From Oceaniferula flava (GTDB taxonomy: Bacteria; Verrucomicrobiota; Verrucomicrobiia; Verrucomicrobiales; Akkermansiaceae), in contig NZ_JAFBGL010000010.1 of NCBI RefSeq assembly GCF_016811075.1, forward strand, positions 1 to 64,000: a DNA stretch of 64,000 bases, in the 5' to 3' direction. Position 1 is the stretch's first letter. Every line of letters begins with the position of its first letter. The position numbers and the translations under genes were made by a program. Shown piece by piece: positions 15,081-61,369 of the stretch. Under the pieces are notes generated by a model. It searched no databases. It saw nothing but the letters and a program-made list of their open reading frames with translations, and was not told where the DNA came from.

Positions 15081-15851
15081 CTAGATGGCAGACGTCTGCT
15101 TACAGTCCGGATAGCCGGTGCAGCCCCAGAATTGGGAGCCTTGGTTGGCTCCTGTTTTGGCAGTGCGGATGGCCATGGCTCTGCCGCAGGCTGGGCAGTG
15201 CGGGGCTTTGTGATCAGACGAATCCGTCTGATCGGAGCGATCTTGGTTTCGCTTCGCGATGCGAGCGGTGGCGAGGGTTTCACGGTAGCCACCGCCTTCT
15301 ACGAAGGCCTGTTCCATGGCGATGAGTTGTTTGTCTAACAAGAAGTTCGCTTGGTGAATCAGGCAGAGGATCGCGTTGGCGCGGATGGCGGGGTCTGCAT
15401 GCTCTAACCAAGGGCGGTAGAGCGTATAGCGGGCACGGTCGCCGGCGTCTGTGGGCAGGTTTAGATCCGACTGATCGGTCTGATCTGACGGATCTTGTTT
15501 TTGGCACTGGCGTGCCAGAGCCCGCACTTGAGATGCCTCGGGGGCATCCTTTGGCCAGAGCGGGAGATCGTTCTGGCGGAGGTAGTCTTCGAAATCCAGC
15601 AGCAGCTCTTCTTGAGATGCTCGCGCGACATTGGTGAGTTTCAGTTCGGAGTGGGTGCTGGTAGAACCAGCGCGGTTGCCCTCTGCAATATTCTGCCGAC
15701 CACTACGTGCAGCCTGGACCATCTGGTCAGTGGTGCGGGAGTAGGGATCGATGAATTTTTTGCAGAAGGCTACCGTGGCATCGTAGATCAGGGTGGTTGT
15801 CTGGAATGATGCCAGTTTGCGGTAACCGCCAGTTGGGCGGAGTTTTTTCAT
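15081..15851 (-). CDS. Four-helix-bundle / suffix-domain / C4 zinc-ribbon protein
   Basis: A 256-residue modular protein. Residues about 12-125 form a four-helix bundle of the 23S rRNA intervening-sequence (S23/Avd-like) type, recognisable by MVQAARSGRQNIAEGNRAGS. Residues about 135-205 form the all-helical 'four helix bundle suffix' domain (TIGR04258-like, LEHADPAIRANAILCLIHQANFLLDKQL). Residues about 220-256 are a topoisomerase-type C4 zinc ribbon (CPACGRAM ... FWGCTGYPDCK). The two linkers between domains are built from the peptide period D-x-(S/T): DPSDQTDQSD and DRSDQTDSSD, encoded by 9-bp DNA repeats. The zinc ribbon suggests nucleic-acid binding. Function of the family is not established. 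Confidence 0.85.
   Translation of the reverse strand: MKKLRPTGGYRKLASFQTTTLIYDATVAFCKKFIDPYSRTTDQMVQAARSGRQNIAEGNRAGSTSTHSELKLTNVARASQEELLLDFEDYLRQNDLPLWPKDAPEASQVRALARQCQKQDPSDQTDQSDLNLPTDAGDRARYTLYRPWLEHADPAIRANAILCLIHQANFLLDKQLIAMEQAFVEGGGYRETLATARIAKRNQDRSDQTDSSDHKAPHCPACGRAMAIRTAKTGANQGSQFWGCTGYPDCKQTSAI
15212..15245. repeat. In-frame 9-bp repeat array (copy 1)
   Basis: Tandem units of the form GATCNGNCN occur inside the coding sequence, including the perfect 9-bp inverted repeat GATCAGACG/CGTCTGATC (15212-15220 and 15225-15233) around AATC. It encodes the D-x-S/T linker before the zinc ribbon of the four-helix-bundle protein. Confidence 0.75.
15464..15494. repeat. In-frame 9-bp repeat array (copy 2)
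   Basis: Three 9-bp units (GATCCGACT, GATCGGTCT, GATCTGACG) plus a closing GATC lie in the coding sequence and encode the linker between the four-helix bundle and the suffix domain. The array is in the same reading phase as copy 1. Confidence 0.78.
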
Positions 15852-55755: not shown

Positions 55756-55849
55756 GACAAGTTTGCAACTTGTCGGCAAACTTGGGAATCATCATCCCAA
55801 GCACGGCTAGTTCACTAGGCTTGCCGACAACTTACAAAGTTGTCCTACT
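55751..55849. repeat. REP doublet left of the RAYT gene
   Basis: Two 29-bp units in opposite orientation occupy 55751-55779 and 55821-55849. They match in 26 of 29 positions. In each unit a stem forms, GACAAG...CTTGTC in one and GACAAC...GTTGTC in the other; the change is compensated on both sides. Between them a 7-bp hairpin CTTGGGA/TCCCAAG lies at about 55782-55802. The left unit contains the nagA stop and the right unit the end of the RAYT gene. Confidence 0.8.
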
Positions 55850-56473
55850 TTGGTAGAGATACTCGCCTTGTCTTAGGTTTTTGGGATTATTCCGAATGTA
55901 TGCTTCGATTCGCTTCAGCTGCGCTTCATTACGCACGATATGGTCGTAGGATTCGTGCTGCCAGAGCTGGCCGAAGAGTCCCATGCGTTGATTAATCTCT
56001 CTGGCGGTATGGCGTTTCCATGAATGCAGTAGGTCTTTGATGGGCCAATTCTGGAATGGTGTCACTAATACATGCACATGGTTAGGCATGATGATAAAAT
56101 CACCGAGCTGATAGCGTTCTTCGTGGAAGAACACGAGGGCATCGGCTACTATTTGTGCGTTGACGGGATCGCGTAATGGGCAAGATCCGTAACAGGCGTC
56201 CAGCATGGAATGGTAGCCTTTCCAGAAGGTCGCGTAATAGGTTTTTTTTTGCTCAGGGGTGAGCTGTTCCAGAATTTGGTCGAGGGGGAGGTTGCTATCT
56301 AACTTGCGACTTCTTAACCAACGAAGTCGCTCCTCGTTCCATTCGTCGAATTTTCCTTTGGGGATGGAATCGTGAAGGCGGAAGGTGATGAAGTAGGAGC
56401 AGCCGGGCTGTTGCCAGTGGGGGAGCTTTCTCCTTGATGTTTCCGTTTCTTCACCAGGATCGTAGTCTTTCAC
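55832..56473 (-). CDS. REP-associated tyrosine transposase (RAYT, Y1/HUH)
   Basis: A 213-residue single-strand endonuclease related to IS200/IS605 TnpA that binds and cleaves REP hairpins. The HUH motif is MPNHVHVL (about residues 126-133) and the likely nucleophile Tyr is in YIRNNPKNLRQ (about 190). The N-terminus RKLPHWQQPGCSYFITFRLHDSIPKGKF matches RAYT proteins, in which an N-terminal cluster and FIIMPNHVHVL are typical. The gene ends inside a REP unit and is surrounded by its presumed cognate repeats. It may serve the host in repeat maintenance instead of transposing. Confidence 0.88.
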   Translation of the reverse strand: MKDYDPGEETETSRRKLPHWQQPGCSYFITFRLHDSIPKGKFDEWNEERLRWLRSRKLDSNLPLDQILEQLTPEQKKTYYATFWKGYHSMLDACYGSCPLRDPVNAQIVADALVFFHEERYQLGDFIIMPNHVHVLVTPFQNWPIKDLLHSWKRHTAREINQRMGLFGQLWQHESYDHIVRNEAQLKRIEAYIRNNPKNLRQGEYLYQSRTTL

Positions 56474-57563: not shown

Positions 57564-57950
57564 TTAGGTAAGAATACTTTGGAGACGGACAGTGGTCGTC
57601 TGGCGATTGATTGAGGATGAAGCGACGTCGAGCACGAGCTGTTCCCAGTCGTCGATATCAAGCTCCATGGAGGGCAGCTGTCCATTTTCGCTTAAAACGA
57701 CGAGGCAGGATGCGAGAGCGGTGCGTTTGTTGCCATCGAGGAAGGGGTGATTTTTACAGAGGTAGTAAAGATAGGCGGCACCAATTTCGATGATATCACT
57801 CATGATCGGCTCGCCTCCGAAGGTCGCTTGTGGGGCAGCAATGGCACTTTCGAGCAATGACTCTTCTCTCAAGCCCGGCATGCCACCGTGGGCGGAAAGC
57901 ACGGCATCGTGAATAGCGAGCACGGACTCCAAGGTGAGATGCTTGATCAT
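57564..57950 (-). CDS. Doc/Fic-family toxin
   Basis: A 128-residue Fic-fold protein of the Doc (death-on-curing) class. The core motif H-P-F-x-D-G-N-K-R appears as NHPFLDGNKRTALA (about residues 63-75). Doc-type toxins phosphorylate EF-Tu and block translation. It lies exactly one base after the AbrB-like antitoxin gene on the same strand, a classical toxin-antitoxin pair. The N-terminal IHDAVLSAHGGMPGLREESLLESAIAAPQ is typical of Doc. Confidence 0.88.
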   Translation of the reverse strand: MIKHLTLESVLAIHDAVLSAHGGMPGLREESLLESAIAAPQATFGGEPIMSDIIEIGAAYLYYLCKNHPFLDGNKRTALASCLVVLSENGQLPSMELDIDDWEQLVLDVASSSINRQTTTVRLQSILT

Positions 57951-58181
57951 CTATTTGGACAGACGGTCGAAAAGTTTGTCGTTTTTGGCGATGATGTCTG
58001 TGGCGAGCTGTTTGGCTCGATCAGGATCGACTGTGGCGACTTCAGGAGTCATCGAAATCGTGCCACCTCTGTGCACGGTGATGTTGACCTTGTCGCCTTC
58101 CTTGAGATTGGCGAGCTCGAGCAGAGCGGCATCGAGGATGATGCCACGCGAGTTGCCAATTTTTGTGATGGTCTTGATCAT
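57951..58181 (-). CDS. AbrB/MazE-type antitoxin
   Basis: A 76-residue DNA-binding antitoxin with a swapped-hairpin AbrB fold: MIKTITKIGNSRGIILDAALLELANLKEGDKVNITV (about residues 1-36). The C-terminus (about 45-76) probably wraps around the toxin. The ATG at 58181 is preferred to an upstream codon at 58244. It overlaps the operator palindrome region just upstream and is followed immediately by the Doc-like toxin, so it likely represses the pair's own transcription. Confidence 0.85.
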   Translation of the reverse strand: MIKTITKIGNSRGIILDAALLELANLKEGDKVNITVHRGGTISMTPEVATVDPDRAKQLATDIIAKNDKLFDRLSK

Positions 58182-58183
58182 GT

Positions 58184-58200
58184 TGTAACAATGTATTACA
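58184..58200. promoter_or_regulatory. Likely autoregulatory operator of the toxin-antitoxin pair
   Basis: TGTAA (58184-58188) and TTACA (58196-58200) are inverted around CAATGTA, directly upstream of the antitoxin start. AbrB-type antitoxins commonly bind such AT-rich dyads. The palindrome is short, so confidence is modest. Confidence 0.45.
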
Positions 58201-58252
58201 TCATTGGATTTGTCAAGCTGGCGCTTCCGTCCCTGCGCTGGCAAGGGCTGTG

Positions 58253-59647
58253 CTAGGATGGTGTCAGCTCGTAGCCGTCGGGGCTGTCTTTGATGGTCCA
58301 GCCGAGGGCGGTGATTTCATCGCGGAGCTGATCGGAGGCGGCCCAGTCTTTGTTTTGCTTGGCGGCCAGGCGTTGATCGGCGAGGTCTTTGACTTCGGCG
58401 GGGATGTCGCTGCTTTCATCGTTGGCTACCGGGAGCTCGAGGCCGAGGGCTCTGAGGATGGCGTCGAAGGCGGCCAGGTTGGCGGCGGCTTCTTCACCTT
58501 CCAATTTCTGGGCGGCTTTGAGACCGGAGAAGAGGTGACCAAGCGCGGCCGGGGTGTTGAGATCGCGGTTGAGCGCGTCCCAAGCCGGCTGGAATTCCTT
58601 GAAGTCATCCGAGCTCAGTTTGGCATCTGAGTCTTGGGAATTGGAACTTAACACCTCGCGGCCTTTGGCGAGTTTGGCGAGCGCTTCCTTCGCGGCGTGC
58701 AGTGAGTCCAGGGTAAAGTTCAGCTGTTTGCGGTAGTGGCCGGAGATGAGGACGTAGCGCACTTCCATGGCGGTGTGGCCTTTGGCTTCGAGGTCATCAA
58801 TGGTGTAGAGATTGCCTAACGACTTCGACATCTTACCGCCATCGACCATCAGGTGGGTGATGTGGAACCAGTGGGCTGCGAAGTCGCCACCGCAGGAGCA
58901 TTGGCTCTGGGCGATTTCGTTTTCGTGGTGTGGGAAGACGAGGTCGACACCACCGGAGTGGAGGTCGAAGCTTTCGCCGAGGTATTCCTTGATCATGGCA
59001 GAGCACTCGAGGTGCCAGCCGGGTCGGCCTTCGCCCCATGGGGAGCTCCAGTAGTTCTCGCCGTCTTCCTCTTTTCTCGATTTCCACAGCACGAAGTCGG
59101 CGATGGAGTCTTTCTCATACTCATCGGCATCGGCGCGCTGGTTCTGAGTTTTTCCGAGATCGAGCTCGCGGGTATCGAGGTGGGAGAGCTTTCCGTAGTC
59201 GGGAAACGAGGAGACCTTGAAGTAAACCGAGCCGTCCTCGGAGGCGTAGGCGTGGCCTTTTTCGATCAGCTGCTCGATCATGGCGATCTGCTGGGGAATG
59301 TGCTCGATGGCACTGGGTTCGATGTGTGGTGGCTGGCAACCGAGCGCGGTGCAATCGGCGTGGAATTTCTCGGTCCACCCGGCAGTGAACTCTTTCAGCG
59401 TCTTACCGGCGGCCTGGGAGTCGCGGATGGTTTTATCATCGACATCGGTGATGTTTCTCACATGCAGAGTCTTCATGCCGCCTGTTTCCAAGACACGACG
59501 GAAAACATCGTGCATGACGAAGGTGCGGAAGTTGCCGATGTGGGCCGGGCCATAGACGGTGGGGCCGCAGCAGTAGAAGCGGAAGGTTTCGCCATCGAGG
59601 GGTTTCAGCTCGCGGTTACTGCGTGTCAGGGTGTCGTAGAGATTCAT
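58253..59647 (-). CDS. cysS: Cysteinyl-tRNA synthetase
   Basis: A 464-residue class I aminoacyl-tRNA synthetase. HIGH motif GPAHIGNFRTF (about residues 34-37), KMSKS motif GKMSKSLGNLYT (about 271), zinc ligands FYCCGPTVYG (Cys about 26) and HLECSAMI, HHENEIAQSQ. The start MNLYDTL at 59647 is taken; the longer frame upstream runs into the repeat flanking the neighbouring gene (SQPMPSQSINH) and is not typical of CysS. Full-length and ordinary otherwise. Confidence 0.95.
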   Translation of the reverse strand: MNLYDTLTRSNRELKPLDGETFRFYCCGPTVYGPAHIGNFRTFVMHDVFRRVLETGGMKTLHVRNITDVDDKTIRDSQAAGKTLKEFTAGWTEKFHADCTALGCQPPHIEPSAIEHIPQQIAMIEQLIEKGHAYASEDGSVYFKVSSFPDYGKLSHLDTRELDLGKTQNQRADADEYEKDSIADFVLWKSRKEEDGENYWSSPWGEGRPGWHLECSAMIKEYLGESFDLHSGGVDLVFPHHENEIAQSQCSCGGDFAAHWFHITHLMVDGGKMSKSLGNLYTIDDLEAKGHTAMEVRYVLISGHYRKQLNFTLDSLHAAKEALAKLAKGREVLSSNSQDSDAKLSSDDFKEFQPAWDALNRDLNTPAALGHLFSGLKAAQKLEGEEAAANLAAFDAILRALGLELPVANDESSDIPAEVKDLADQRLAAKQNKDWAASDQLRDEITALGWTIKDSPDGYELTPS

Positions 59648-59662
59648 GGAGTGGTTGATTGA

Positions 59663-59692
59663 TTGACTGGGCATTGGTTGACTAGTCATTGG
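59663..59692. repeat. Tandem 15-bp repeat, left flank of the four-helix gene
   Basis: Two adjacent 15-bp units: TTGACTGGGCATTGG (59663-59677) and TTGACTAGTCATTGG (59678-59692). The stop codon of the four-helix-bundle gene is the TAG within ACTAGT. The same core in inverted orientation lies at 60072-60103. Confidence 0.75.
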
Positions 59693-60053
59693 TTGCGCTC
59701 TTGCGGATCGATGTGATGTAGGCGTTGAGTCGTTTGTGGAGAATTTCGAGTTGTTGGTAAAGCTCTCGACCTTGTTCTTTTGGGATCAGGTTTCTGTGGA
59801 CGGACTTTTCGATCCAGGTCTGGGTTTCGGTCAGTGAACCACGTGAATAATGGCAGAATTTGATGTTCTCCTTGTAGTGATAGCGACCATGGCCCTCGGA
59901 GATATTGGCTGCAATCGAGCCGGCAGAGCGCACGAACTGTAGACCTACCGCATTTTTCGAAAAATGATCCCACTGGGCAACCAACGACCAGACCGTCTCA
60001 CCAATGGTCATGGCTTCGCGGTAAACCTCTAGGTTATTGATCGAATCAGGCAT
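59682..60053 (-). CDS. Four-helix-bundle protein (23S IVS/S23-like)
   Basis: A 123-residue all-helical protein of the S23/23S-rRNA-intervening-sequence family, relatives of the Avd protein of diversity-generating retroelements. The conserved segment is LQFVRSAGSIAANISEGHGRYHYKENIKFCHYSRGSLTETQTWI (about residues 38-81), with the basic pore of the pentameric bundle. No 23S rRNA is near, so it is a stand-alone copy. Inverted tandem repeats flank it on both sides, and its stop codon comes from one repeat. Function unknown; RNA or protein binding is likely. Confidence 0.9.
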   Translation of the reverse strand: MPDSINNLEVYREAMTIGETVWSLVAQWDHFSKNAVGLQFVRSAGSIAANISEGHGRYHYKENIKFCHYSRGSLTETQTWIEKSVHRNLIPKEQGRELYQQLEILHKRLNAYITSIRKSATND

Positions 60054-60071
60054 GGCGTATTAGGATGTGAA

Positions 60072-60103
60072 CCAATTAACTAGTCAACCAGTGAACTAGT
60101 CAA
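60072..60103. repeat. Tandem 16-bp repeat, right flank of the four-helix gene
   Basis: Two adjacent 16-bp units: CCAATTAACTAGTCAA (60072-60087) and CCAGTGAACTAGTCAA (60088-60103), inverted relative to the left-hand units. The C-terminus and stop of the upstream mscS gene (ALTSSLVD then TAG) are encoded by these units. Confidence 0.75.
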
Positions 60104-61369
60104 CGCCGACATCGAGCCGTCTGACGGCGACTGGAAAGCCCTCAGGCCGAACTCGGGGAGGACGGCGAGGAAGTGCTCGAAGATGTCGCTTTGGATGTCT
60201 TCGTAGTGGGCCCAGGCGTTGTCATTGGTGAAGGTGTAGAGTTCGATGGGGACGCCGTGAGCGGTCGGCTGAAGCTGGCGCACGAGCAGGGTTTGGCGCT
60301 GGGCGATCTTCGGGTGTTTTTTCAAATACTCAAGCATGTAGGCGCGGAAGGTGCCGAGGTTGGTGAGTGCGCGGGAGTTGACTGGGCTAGTGAAGTCATC
60401 GCTGGCATGCTCGCTGTTCCACTCGGCGAGTTCTTTTTGTTTCCGGTCGAGATAGGGTTGCAGCAGGCGGATGTTGCGCATTTTTTCCAACATCGCATCG
60501 TCGAGCAGGGTCACGGTCGACATGTCGAGGTTGACCGAGCGTTTGATGCGGCGGACCCCGCTGTTGCTCATGCCGCGCCAGTTTTTGAAGCTGTCGGAGA
60601 TCAGGGCGTAGGTGGGGATGGTGGTGATGGTTTTATCCCAGTTGCGCACCTTGACGGTGGTCAGGGCGACCTCGAGCACTTCGCCATCGGCGCCGAACTT
60701 GTTCATCTCGATCCAGTCCCCCCGCGCGACCATGCGGTTGGCCGAGAGCTGGATGCCGGCGACCAGGCCGAGGATGGAGTCCTTGAAAATCAGCATCATC
60801 ACCGCGGTCATGGCACCGAGACCGGAGAAGATCAGCACGGGGGATTTGCCGATGAGGCTGGAGATGATGAAAATGATCGCCGCCACGATCAGGATGATCT
60901 TGATGACCTGGATGAAGCCCTTGATCGGCAGCTCCTTGGAAACCTCGAAACGGAGGTAGATCCTCTCGATGATATTCAGCACCGAGTTGAACGACAGCAG
61001 GGAGAGGATAATGATGAACACCTGTGCCGAGATGACAATGAGGTGGGAAACCTGAAGCGATCCCTCGTCCAGGGCATTGATCGCCAGAGGGGCTGCCCTG
61101 AGAATGATAGCTGCCGGGATCAACATGGAGATCCAGCTGGATAGCCGACTGTTCAAGATCTCGTCGTCCCAGGAGTTGGCGGTCTTTTTCAAGACCTTGG
61201 TGACGATGCGCATCAGCACCTTGCGGATGACCAGATATGCGAGGTAGGCGACCACGAAAACGGCGGCCAGTAGGATAAGATCCACCAAGACGCGTAGCAT
61301 CCAGTTGACGTCTGCCTTGACGGCATCGCCAGAAAGTAAGTTAGTGAGCTTGTCGTGCCAAGATTGCAT
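60080..61369 (-). CDS. MscS-family mechanosensitive channel
   Basis: A 429-residue small-conductance mechanosensitive channel homologue. Start MQSWHDKL at 61369; the longer frame to 61561 has no membrane character and a typical N-terminus begins here. Four or five N-terminal transmembrane helices (about 25-180) lead to the pore helix and MscS beta domain, marked by LVAGIQLSANRMVARGDWIEMNKFGADGEV and VRNWDKTITTIPTYALISDSFKNWRGM. A long C-terminal region follows. The final residues are encoded by the repeat array around the four-helix gene, suggesting that the array changed its end. It relieves osmotic shock. Confidence 0.92.
   Translation of the reverse strand: MQSWHDKLTNLLSGDAVKADVNWMLRVLVDLILLAAVFVVAYLAYLVIRKVLMRIVTKVLKKTANSWDDEILNSRLSSWISMLIPAAIILRAAPLAINALDEGSLQVSHLIVISAQVFIIILSLLSFNSVLNIIERIYLRFEVSKELPIKGFIQVIKIILIVAAIIFIISSLIGKSPVLIFSGLGAMTAVMMLIFKDSILGLVAGIQLSANRMVARGDWIEMNKFGADGEVLEVALTTVKVRNWDKTITTIPTYALISDSFKNWRGMSNSGVRRIKRSVNLDMSTVTLLDDAMLEKMRNIRLLQPYLDRKQKELAEWNSEHASDDFTSPVNSRALTNLGTFRAYMLEYLKKHPKIAQRQTLLVRQLQPTAHGVPIELYTFTNDNAWAHYEDIQSDIFEHFLAVLPEFGLRAFQSPSDGSMSALTSSLVD

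Follow-up and report, generated by a model that had tools for sequence, protein, structure and literature searches.

Background

The protein family described by TIGR02436 and PF05635 (23S rRNA IVP, or S23p) is the one encoded by 23S rRNA intervening sequences (IVSs). Its members are common in Verrucomicrobiota and occur also in Bacteroidota, Chloroflexota and other phyla, and we know of no function for PF05635 proteins. REPIN-RAYT systems pair a gene flanked by inverted short repeats with gene-less inverted-pair copies in the same genome. In Coxiella, the 23S rRNA IVS has a 28-bp terminal stem, contains an S23p ORF and is excised by RNase III (PMC4990558). S23p and the Avd proteins of diversity-generating retroelements are homologous four-helix proteins (PMC10053308), and degenerate complementary heptanucleotide repeats occur in the P6b stem of the Nostoc trnL group I intron (PMC4476775).

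An IVP gene between two protein-coding genes

The locus described here lies in a 64,000-nucleotide stretch of the Oceaniferula flava genome (the window; contig NZ_JAFBGL010000010.1, positions 1 to 64,000). In the sense direction the order is mscS, IVP gene, cysS, with these features:

60080..61369, minus strand: mscS-type mechanosensitive channel, the upstream neighbour (PF00924, PF21082; start kept in relatives)
60072..60103, minus strand: 5' (upstream) repeat arm of four ~8-nt units (from the sequence and its complementarity to the other arm)
59682..60053, minus strand: IVP/S23p-family four-helix-bundle gene, 123 aa (PF05635 and TIGR02436 over cut-off; relative 2gsc)
59663..59692, minus strand: 3' (downstream) repeat arm of two 15-nt units (complementary to the 5' arm; pairs in folds)
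58253..59647, minus strand: cysS, cysteinyl-tRNA synthetase, the downstream neighbour (TIGR00435, 461 bits; conserved start MNLYDTL)

Profile searches place the protein in the IVS-encoded family, in line with the initial annotation's comparison of the layout with a 23S rRNA IVS: it scores 93.6 bits against PF05635 (cut-off 33.8, E 1e-26) and 93.1 bits against TIGR02436 (cut-off 24, E 1.1e-26), and models of this type are its sole matches in Pfam and NCBIfam. The Xanthomonas campestris protein 2gsc is a solved relative (E 4.4e-8).

The left array consists of TTGACTGG-GCATTGG (59663-59677) followed by TTGACTAG-TCATTGG (59678-59692), and the right array of CCAATTAA-CTAGTCAA (60072-60087) followed by CCAGTGAA-CTAGTCAA (60088-60103). 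Read in the sense direction, the upstream arm is GTTGACTA-GTTCACTG-GTTGACTA-GTTAATTG-GTTCAC and the downstream arm is approximately its reverse complement; the two ends of the element can thus pair into a stem that encloses a sense ORF. The bracketing inverted arrays are real and were correctly placed by the initial annotation: their complementarity gives a local alignment score of 34, whereas 300 dinucleotide shuffles reach 24 at most and the 99th percentile over 583 other positions of the window is 22. The 15-16-bp units that it reported are present as described, but each is a pair of units, and the true period is ~8 nt.

The arms also overlap gene ends, another point on which the initial annotation holds. 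The IVP stop codon (59682-59684) is the TAG of a CTAG within a repeat unit of the downstream arm, the mscS stop codon (60080-60082) is likewise the TAG of a CTAG in the upstream arm, and the last 8 codons of mscS (60080-60103) fall inside that arm. An ORF listing puts the beginning of cysS at 59689, whereas the relatives share a start at 59647, and the left array is therefore intergenic except for the end of the IVP gene. No Rfam match was found in 59300-60500, and the element, with mscS and cysS as its neighbours, is not inside a 23S rRNA helix.

Just downstream of cysS is a Doc/Fic-type toxin gene with an AbrB/MazE-like partner (57564-58244, minus strand), and a separate gene for a REP-associated tyrosine transposase (RAYT-like; 55832-56473, minus strand) lies 3 kb from the IVP locus. 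A second four-helix protein, with a TIGR04258 'suffix' domain and a topoisomerase-like zinc segment, is encoded at 15081-15851 (minus strand); units of the GATCAGACGGATCAGACCGATC type precede its start codon and recur within its coding linker.

Complementary arms are general in the family

Genomes related to that of the window, together with GTDB contigs from several phyla, yielded 174 non-identical IVP genes; both flanks were readable in 170. Each upstream flank was aligned locally with the reverse complement of the downstream flank, with a threshold score of at least 24. This score is reached by 71.8% of the 170 IVP loci, compared with 4.1% when flanks are swapped between loci (Mann-Whitney p 8e-63) and 2.1% of 287 control genes taken from stretches sampled in five of these genomes (p 2e-48), the survey loci including orthologues and thus not all being independent. 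About a quarter of IVP loci lack strong complementarity, which counts against a cassette reading. No rRNA was found in the 20 related loci searched. The complementary-arm layout is thus general for the IVP family outside rRNA, which extends the IVS-like design that the initial annotation had recognised at a single locus.

Widening the flank slightly gives 132 loci whose arms score at least 26; the median arm length is 33 nt, at 86% identity. Arm autocorrelation peaks at lag 7 (0.49 versus 0.29 in shuffled arms) and next at lag 8; the units are mostly 7-8 nt long, and their words vary from locus to locus. The in-register match between arms exceeds the match between units within an arm (mean 42 versus 24-26; higher in 82% of loci), so the arms are more than two arrays of one word. 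At one junction in different species, the repeat words are distinct and each is self-complementary. The arms stay complementary in register while their sequence shifts between lineages.

Neighbouring genes were called with a six-frame codon model that recovered the window genes correctly; orientation calls by longest ORF or amino-acid composition were dropped because antisense ORFs confounded them. Among IVP genes with close neighbours, 127 of 141 (90%) are co-oriented with both, compared with 111 of 220 control gene triples (50%). From names read off the translations, we take the recurrent junctions to be sdhA-sdhB, metK-ahcY, nuoI-nuoJ and serC-serA, and further gyrB-gyrA, ilvB-ilvN, cysD-cysN and dnaK-groES. 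The window element is one member of a family of IVS-like cassettes that occupy operon junctions in several phyla, with inverted heptad arms matched to the protein and gene-less derivatives.

Very long arrays occur in polysaccharide operons of two genomes of the window's genus (L147, L148, L023 and L176, in G009 and G013). They invade adjoining coding sequence, where they are read as low-complexity protein, even within an rfbB-like gene.

The cassette is an insertion

mscS was searched for in 39 relatives, and mscS and cysS were both readable at 12 loci. At all 12 the two genes are adjacent, 10-97 nt apart, with no IVP gene between them. Given these empty junctions, the window cassette is an insertion between mscS and cysS, and the initial annotation's suggestion of insertion at gene ends is borne out. 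The pattern is the opposite of a conserved cysS-IVP-mscS synteny with incidental repeats, which would have spoken against its reading. In one relative (L111, G013) the mscS-cysS spacer is itself a 7-8-nt array, TAACTGATAACCGATAACTCATAACT, and looks like a solo arm.

The nuoI-nuoJ junction is filled in 6 of 30 genomes, with IVP-type arms at both ends in five and also in L241. Some of the empty sites are clean and others retain solo arms (L235, L256). Comparison of filled and empty nuoI-nuoJ junctions within a genus gave no clear target-site duplication. At two loci of this junction (L019, L249), the arms continue inward as a non-repetitive complementary stretch holding a small palindrome. Arm-like sequence without a gene also occupies cysD-cysN spacers (L275, L276, L263, L274), the two-armed hairpin being clearest in L275. 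Two other genomes (G021 and G033; L271, L272) have an insertion of ~1.3 kb between cysD and cysN, which exceeds the size of an IVP cassette.

Arm sequence follows the protein

Arm sequence tracks the IVP clade and not the host site. Among pairs of loci with unrelated flanking genes, similar arms are found in 1% of those with <30% IVP identity, 17% at 50-60%, 32% at 60-70%, and 93% at 70% or more (14 pairs). Pairs from the same site show the same relationship of arm similarity to protein identity. A similar word was found in none of 68 same-genome arm pairs, upstream arms being compared with upstream arms. Sixty-two pairs have at least 70% protein identity but four-fold degenerate sites that are on average only 0.35 identical, near saturation, and 52 of these 62 share arms; conservation of the arm sequence therefore goes far past that of neutral sites. 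Among pairs at 70-80% identity, only 7% have a similar spacer between arm and ORF, and 18% a similar outer flank. The median dN/dS of close IVP pairs is 0.085, so the protein is under purifying selection. Taken together, these results are what a protein's recognition of its own repeats would give, and from these alignments we infer that IVPs may bind their arms.

Possible mobility and gene-less copies

On the IVP tree, proteins from one site group strongly together (26 changes versus 66.8 when shuffled), but some junctions have been colonised more than once. The loci L033 and L037, from two genomes of the window's genus, encode 87% identical IVPs in different operons, with similar ACAGACA-type arms.

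The arms of some elements are dispersed. The arm AGTTTTCAGTGTTCAGTTTTCAG has 59 matches in G046, 71 in G025 and 120 in G026, all of which carry IVPs with that arm, 27 in G067, where a near relative is present, and 0-2 in G022 and G097. Its backward control yields no match other than 3 in G067. Two other arms were found in genomes with the cognate IVP clade, one with 9 matches in G085 and 23 in G094, the other with 6 each in G019 and G022, and were absent from the other genomes tested, apart from a weak match in G072 that was outscored by its control. Dispersed cognate arms thus occur essentially only in genomes with that IVP clade. The raw counts for G046 overstate mini-elements, since many are single matches within a ~210-bp dispersed repeat, and we reject the notion that all matches there are mini-elements. 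This separate repeat (at L329, L332, L339, L345 and others) has GTAAGGAGGGAGGACACTCCTGTCC termini and one internal IVP-type arm.

Clear gene-less inverted arm pairs, 45-140 nt apart, are present all the same, G046 included. Dispersed pairs were found for related elements in G025, G046, G085 and G094, and in four cases (L349, L350, L351, L359) the pair exactly fills the gap between two co-oriented genes. Gene-less hairpins with cognate arms therefore sit at intercistronic junctions of genomes with the cognate IVP. The window arms have no such pairs. In the window's genome, the exact motif has 5 matches, as does its backward control, and a genome-wide repeat as its source was rejected; the lack of further copies of its own arm counts against the cassette reading. 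Of the further copies that the initial annotation had thought worth seeking, those of the window repeat are missing, and those of related elements are present in other genomes.

Mechanism and alternatives

So, what is the window element? We think it probable that it is an insertion cassette of the IVS kind, that the four-helix protein recognises the arms beside its own gene, and that the cassette has MITE- or REPIN-like derivatives. Such a cassette would comprise an IVP gene with its own inverted 7-8-nt arrays, placed sense-wise between two co-oriented genes. It has inserted into a junction that relatives keep without it, and across the family the arms remain complementary as their words drift by lineage, following the protein clade over the host site. 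The IVP would recognise the units of its arms, as DNA or as a transcript hairpin, and protein and arm would co-evolve. Recognition could aid copying or insertion of the cassette at intercistronic junctions, as RAYT does for REPINs, and gene-less two-armed derivatives could likewise be helped in trans. In mRNA, the arms may pair into a long stem that encloses the cistron, and RNase III might cut this stem as it does that of 23S rRNA IVSs; such cutting would render the insertion nearly harmless, and dependence on host transcription would explain the sense orientation. The S23p/IVP fold has, to our knowledge, no nuclease, recombinase or transposase motif, which counts against this cassette reading. 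Also weighing against it are the failure to define a target-site duplication, the G046 arm matches that belong to the ~210-bp repeat, and mismatches between arms that do not favour G-U.

A broader proposal is possible, and we put it forward tentatively, with less confidence than we would give an even chance. The cassettes might be a distinct class of mobile element, spread over several phyla. A nuclease-less protein of the S23p/Avd fold would recognise self-matched, fast-evolving 7-8-nt arrays and drive both its own insertion and that of gene-less hairpins at intercistronic junctions; 23S rRNA IVSs would be the rRNA-dwelling branch.

Alternatively, the element could act in RNA processing without active mobility, as an RNase III-cleavable, IVP-bound mRNA stem inherited mostly vertically with rare transfer. 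Minimum free energy folds join the flanks by at least 12 bp in 90% of IVP loci versus 43% of control genes, and the window arms pair in both MFE and centroid folds. The sense orientation, the clustering of IVPs by site on the tree, and the excision of the Coxiella IVS by RNase III at its terminal stem (PMC4990558) fit as well. However, the window element folds with an ordinary total energy (z -0.33), and among the mismatches between arms G-U is not in excess over A-C (37 versus 28 by strict counting, 217 versus 291 by loose), so that RNA pairing is not demonstrated and the mismatch counts do not support RNA-level constraint through G-U tolerance. An RNA stem as the target of selection is possible according to these folding models, but like arms and proteins at unrelated sites, together with gene-less hairpins, need some mobility, and we regard this explanation as unlikely.

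The arms could instead be regulatory sites, with the IVP as an (auto)regulator or post-transcriptional factor that targets its own transcript as well as hairpins scattered through other operons. This would accommodate arms conserved beyond synonymous sites and tied to a protein clade, cognate hairpins at intercistronic junctions, and a protein under purifying selection. A regulon, however, sits poorly with elements that are patchily present, missing from their sites in close relatives and housed in unrelated operons, and the window arms have no other target in the genome; we judge it improbable. More improbable still is a by-product of replication, in which slippage and template-switch correction of quasi-palindromes at insertion scars would build the arrays with no recognition by protein. 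The tandem period of 7-8, in-register arm matching and a mismatch spectrum lacking an RNA signature would all follow, but arm conservation above four-fold sites, the link to protein clade at unrelated sites and the near absence of such arrays around other genes would be left unexplained. Finally, one look at the window alone might suggest that the repeats stand beside an ordinary gene by coincidence, or that they form an intrinsic terminator, but chance is refuted by the shuffle scores and the family-wide controls, and the arms are not GC-rich, have no T-run and sit close before start codons, which leaves these readings with next to no probability.

Significance and comparison with known systems

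Under the cassette reading, these comparisons tie PF05635 proteins to a candidate nucleic-acid partner in the repeats that flank their genes, and also to gene-less hairpins. With this link to the arms, the function of the PF05635 family can be put directly to the test, as can that of the long-puzzling 23S rRNA IVS ORFs. The cassettes account for one class of repeat arrays in bacterial intergenic regions, and with their gene-less copies they point to a little-noticed family of tiny mobile elements, selfish-looking yet settled at housekeeping operon junctions such as nuoI-nuoJ, sdhA-sdhB, gyrB-gyrA, metK-ahcY and cysD-cysN.

A search of open-access papers turned up no published description of non-rRNA IVP genes with such flanks, and the combination of features is matched by none of the systems compared here. 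The 23S rRNA IVSs of Coxiella, Leptospira and others share the ~430-nt insert, the sense S23p/PF05635 ORF, the complementary stem-forming ends, the sporadic distribution and the tolerated site in a transcript (PMC4990558). Unlike them, the cassette lies between protein-coding genes, has tandem 7-8-nt arms and has gene-less derivatives. Correia/NEMIS-type miniature elements are also ~100-nt hairpin insertions near genes that can enter mRNA, where they are processed by RNase III, but they have other termini and no associated gene of the IVP family (PMC2649163). The Nostoc trnL P6b stem likewise has degenerate 7-nt repeats on both sides, whose class changes while complementarity persists, but it lies within a group I intron, has no ORF and is cyanobacterial (PMC4476775). 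Avd of diversity-generating retroelements belongs to a homologous four-helix family (PMC10053308), but unlike in those elements, no reverse transcriptase was found among the six genes of 55.8-61.6 kb in a Pfam/NCBIfam scan. In population behaviour, REPIN-RAYT appears closest, with inverted short repeats at the gene and, for related elements, gene-less inverted pairs. The IVP differs in being a four-helix bundle and not a Y1 transposase, since it matches PF05635/TIGR02436-type models only, and each protein clade has arms of its own, made up of degenerate heptad arrays.
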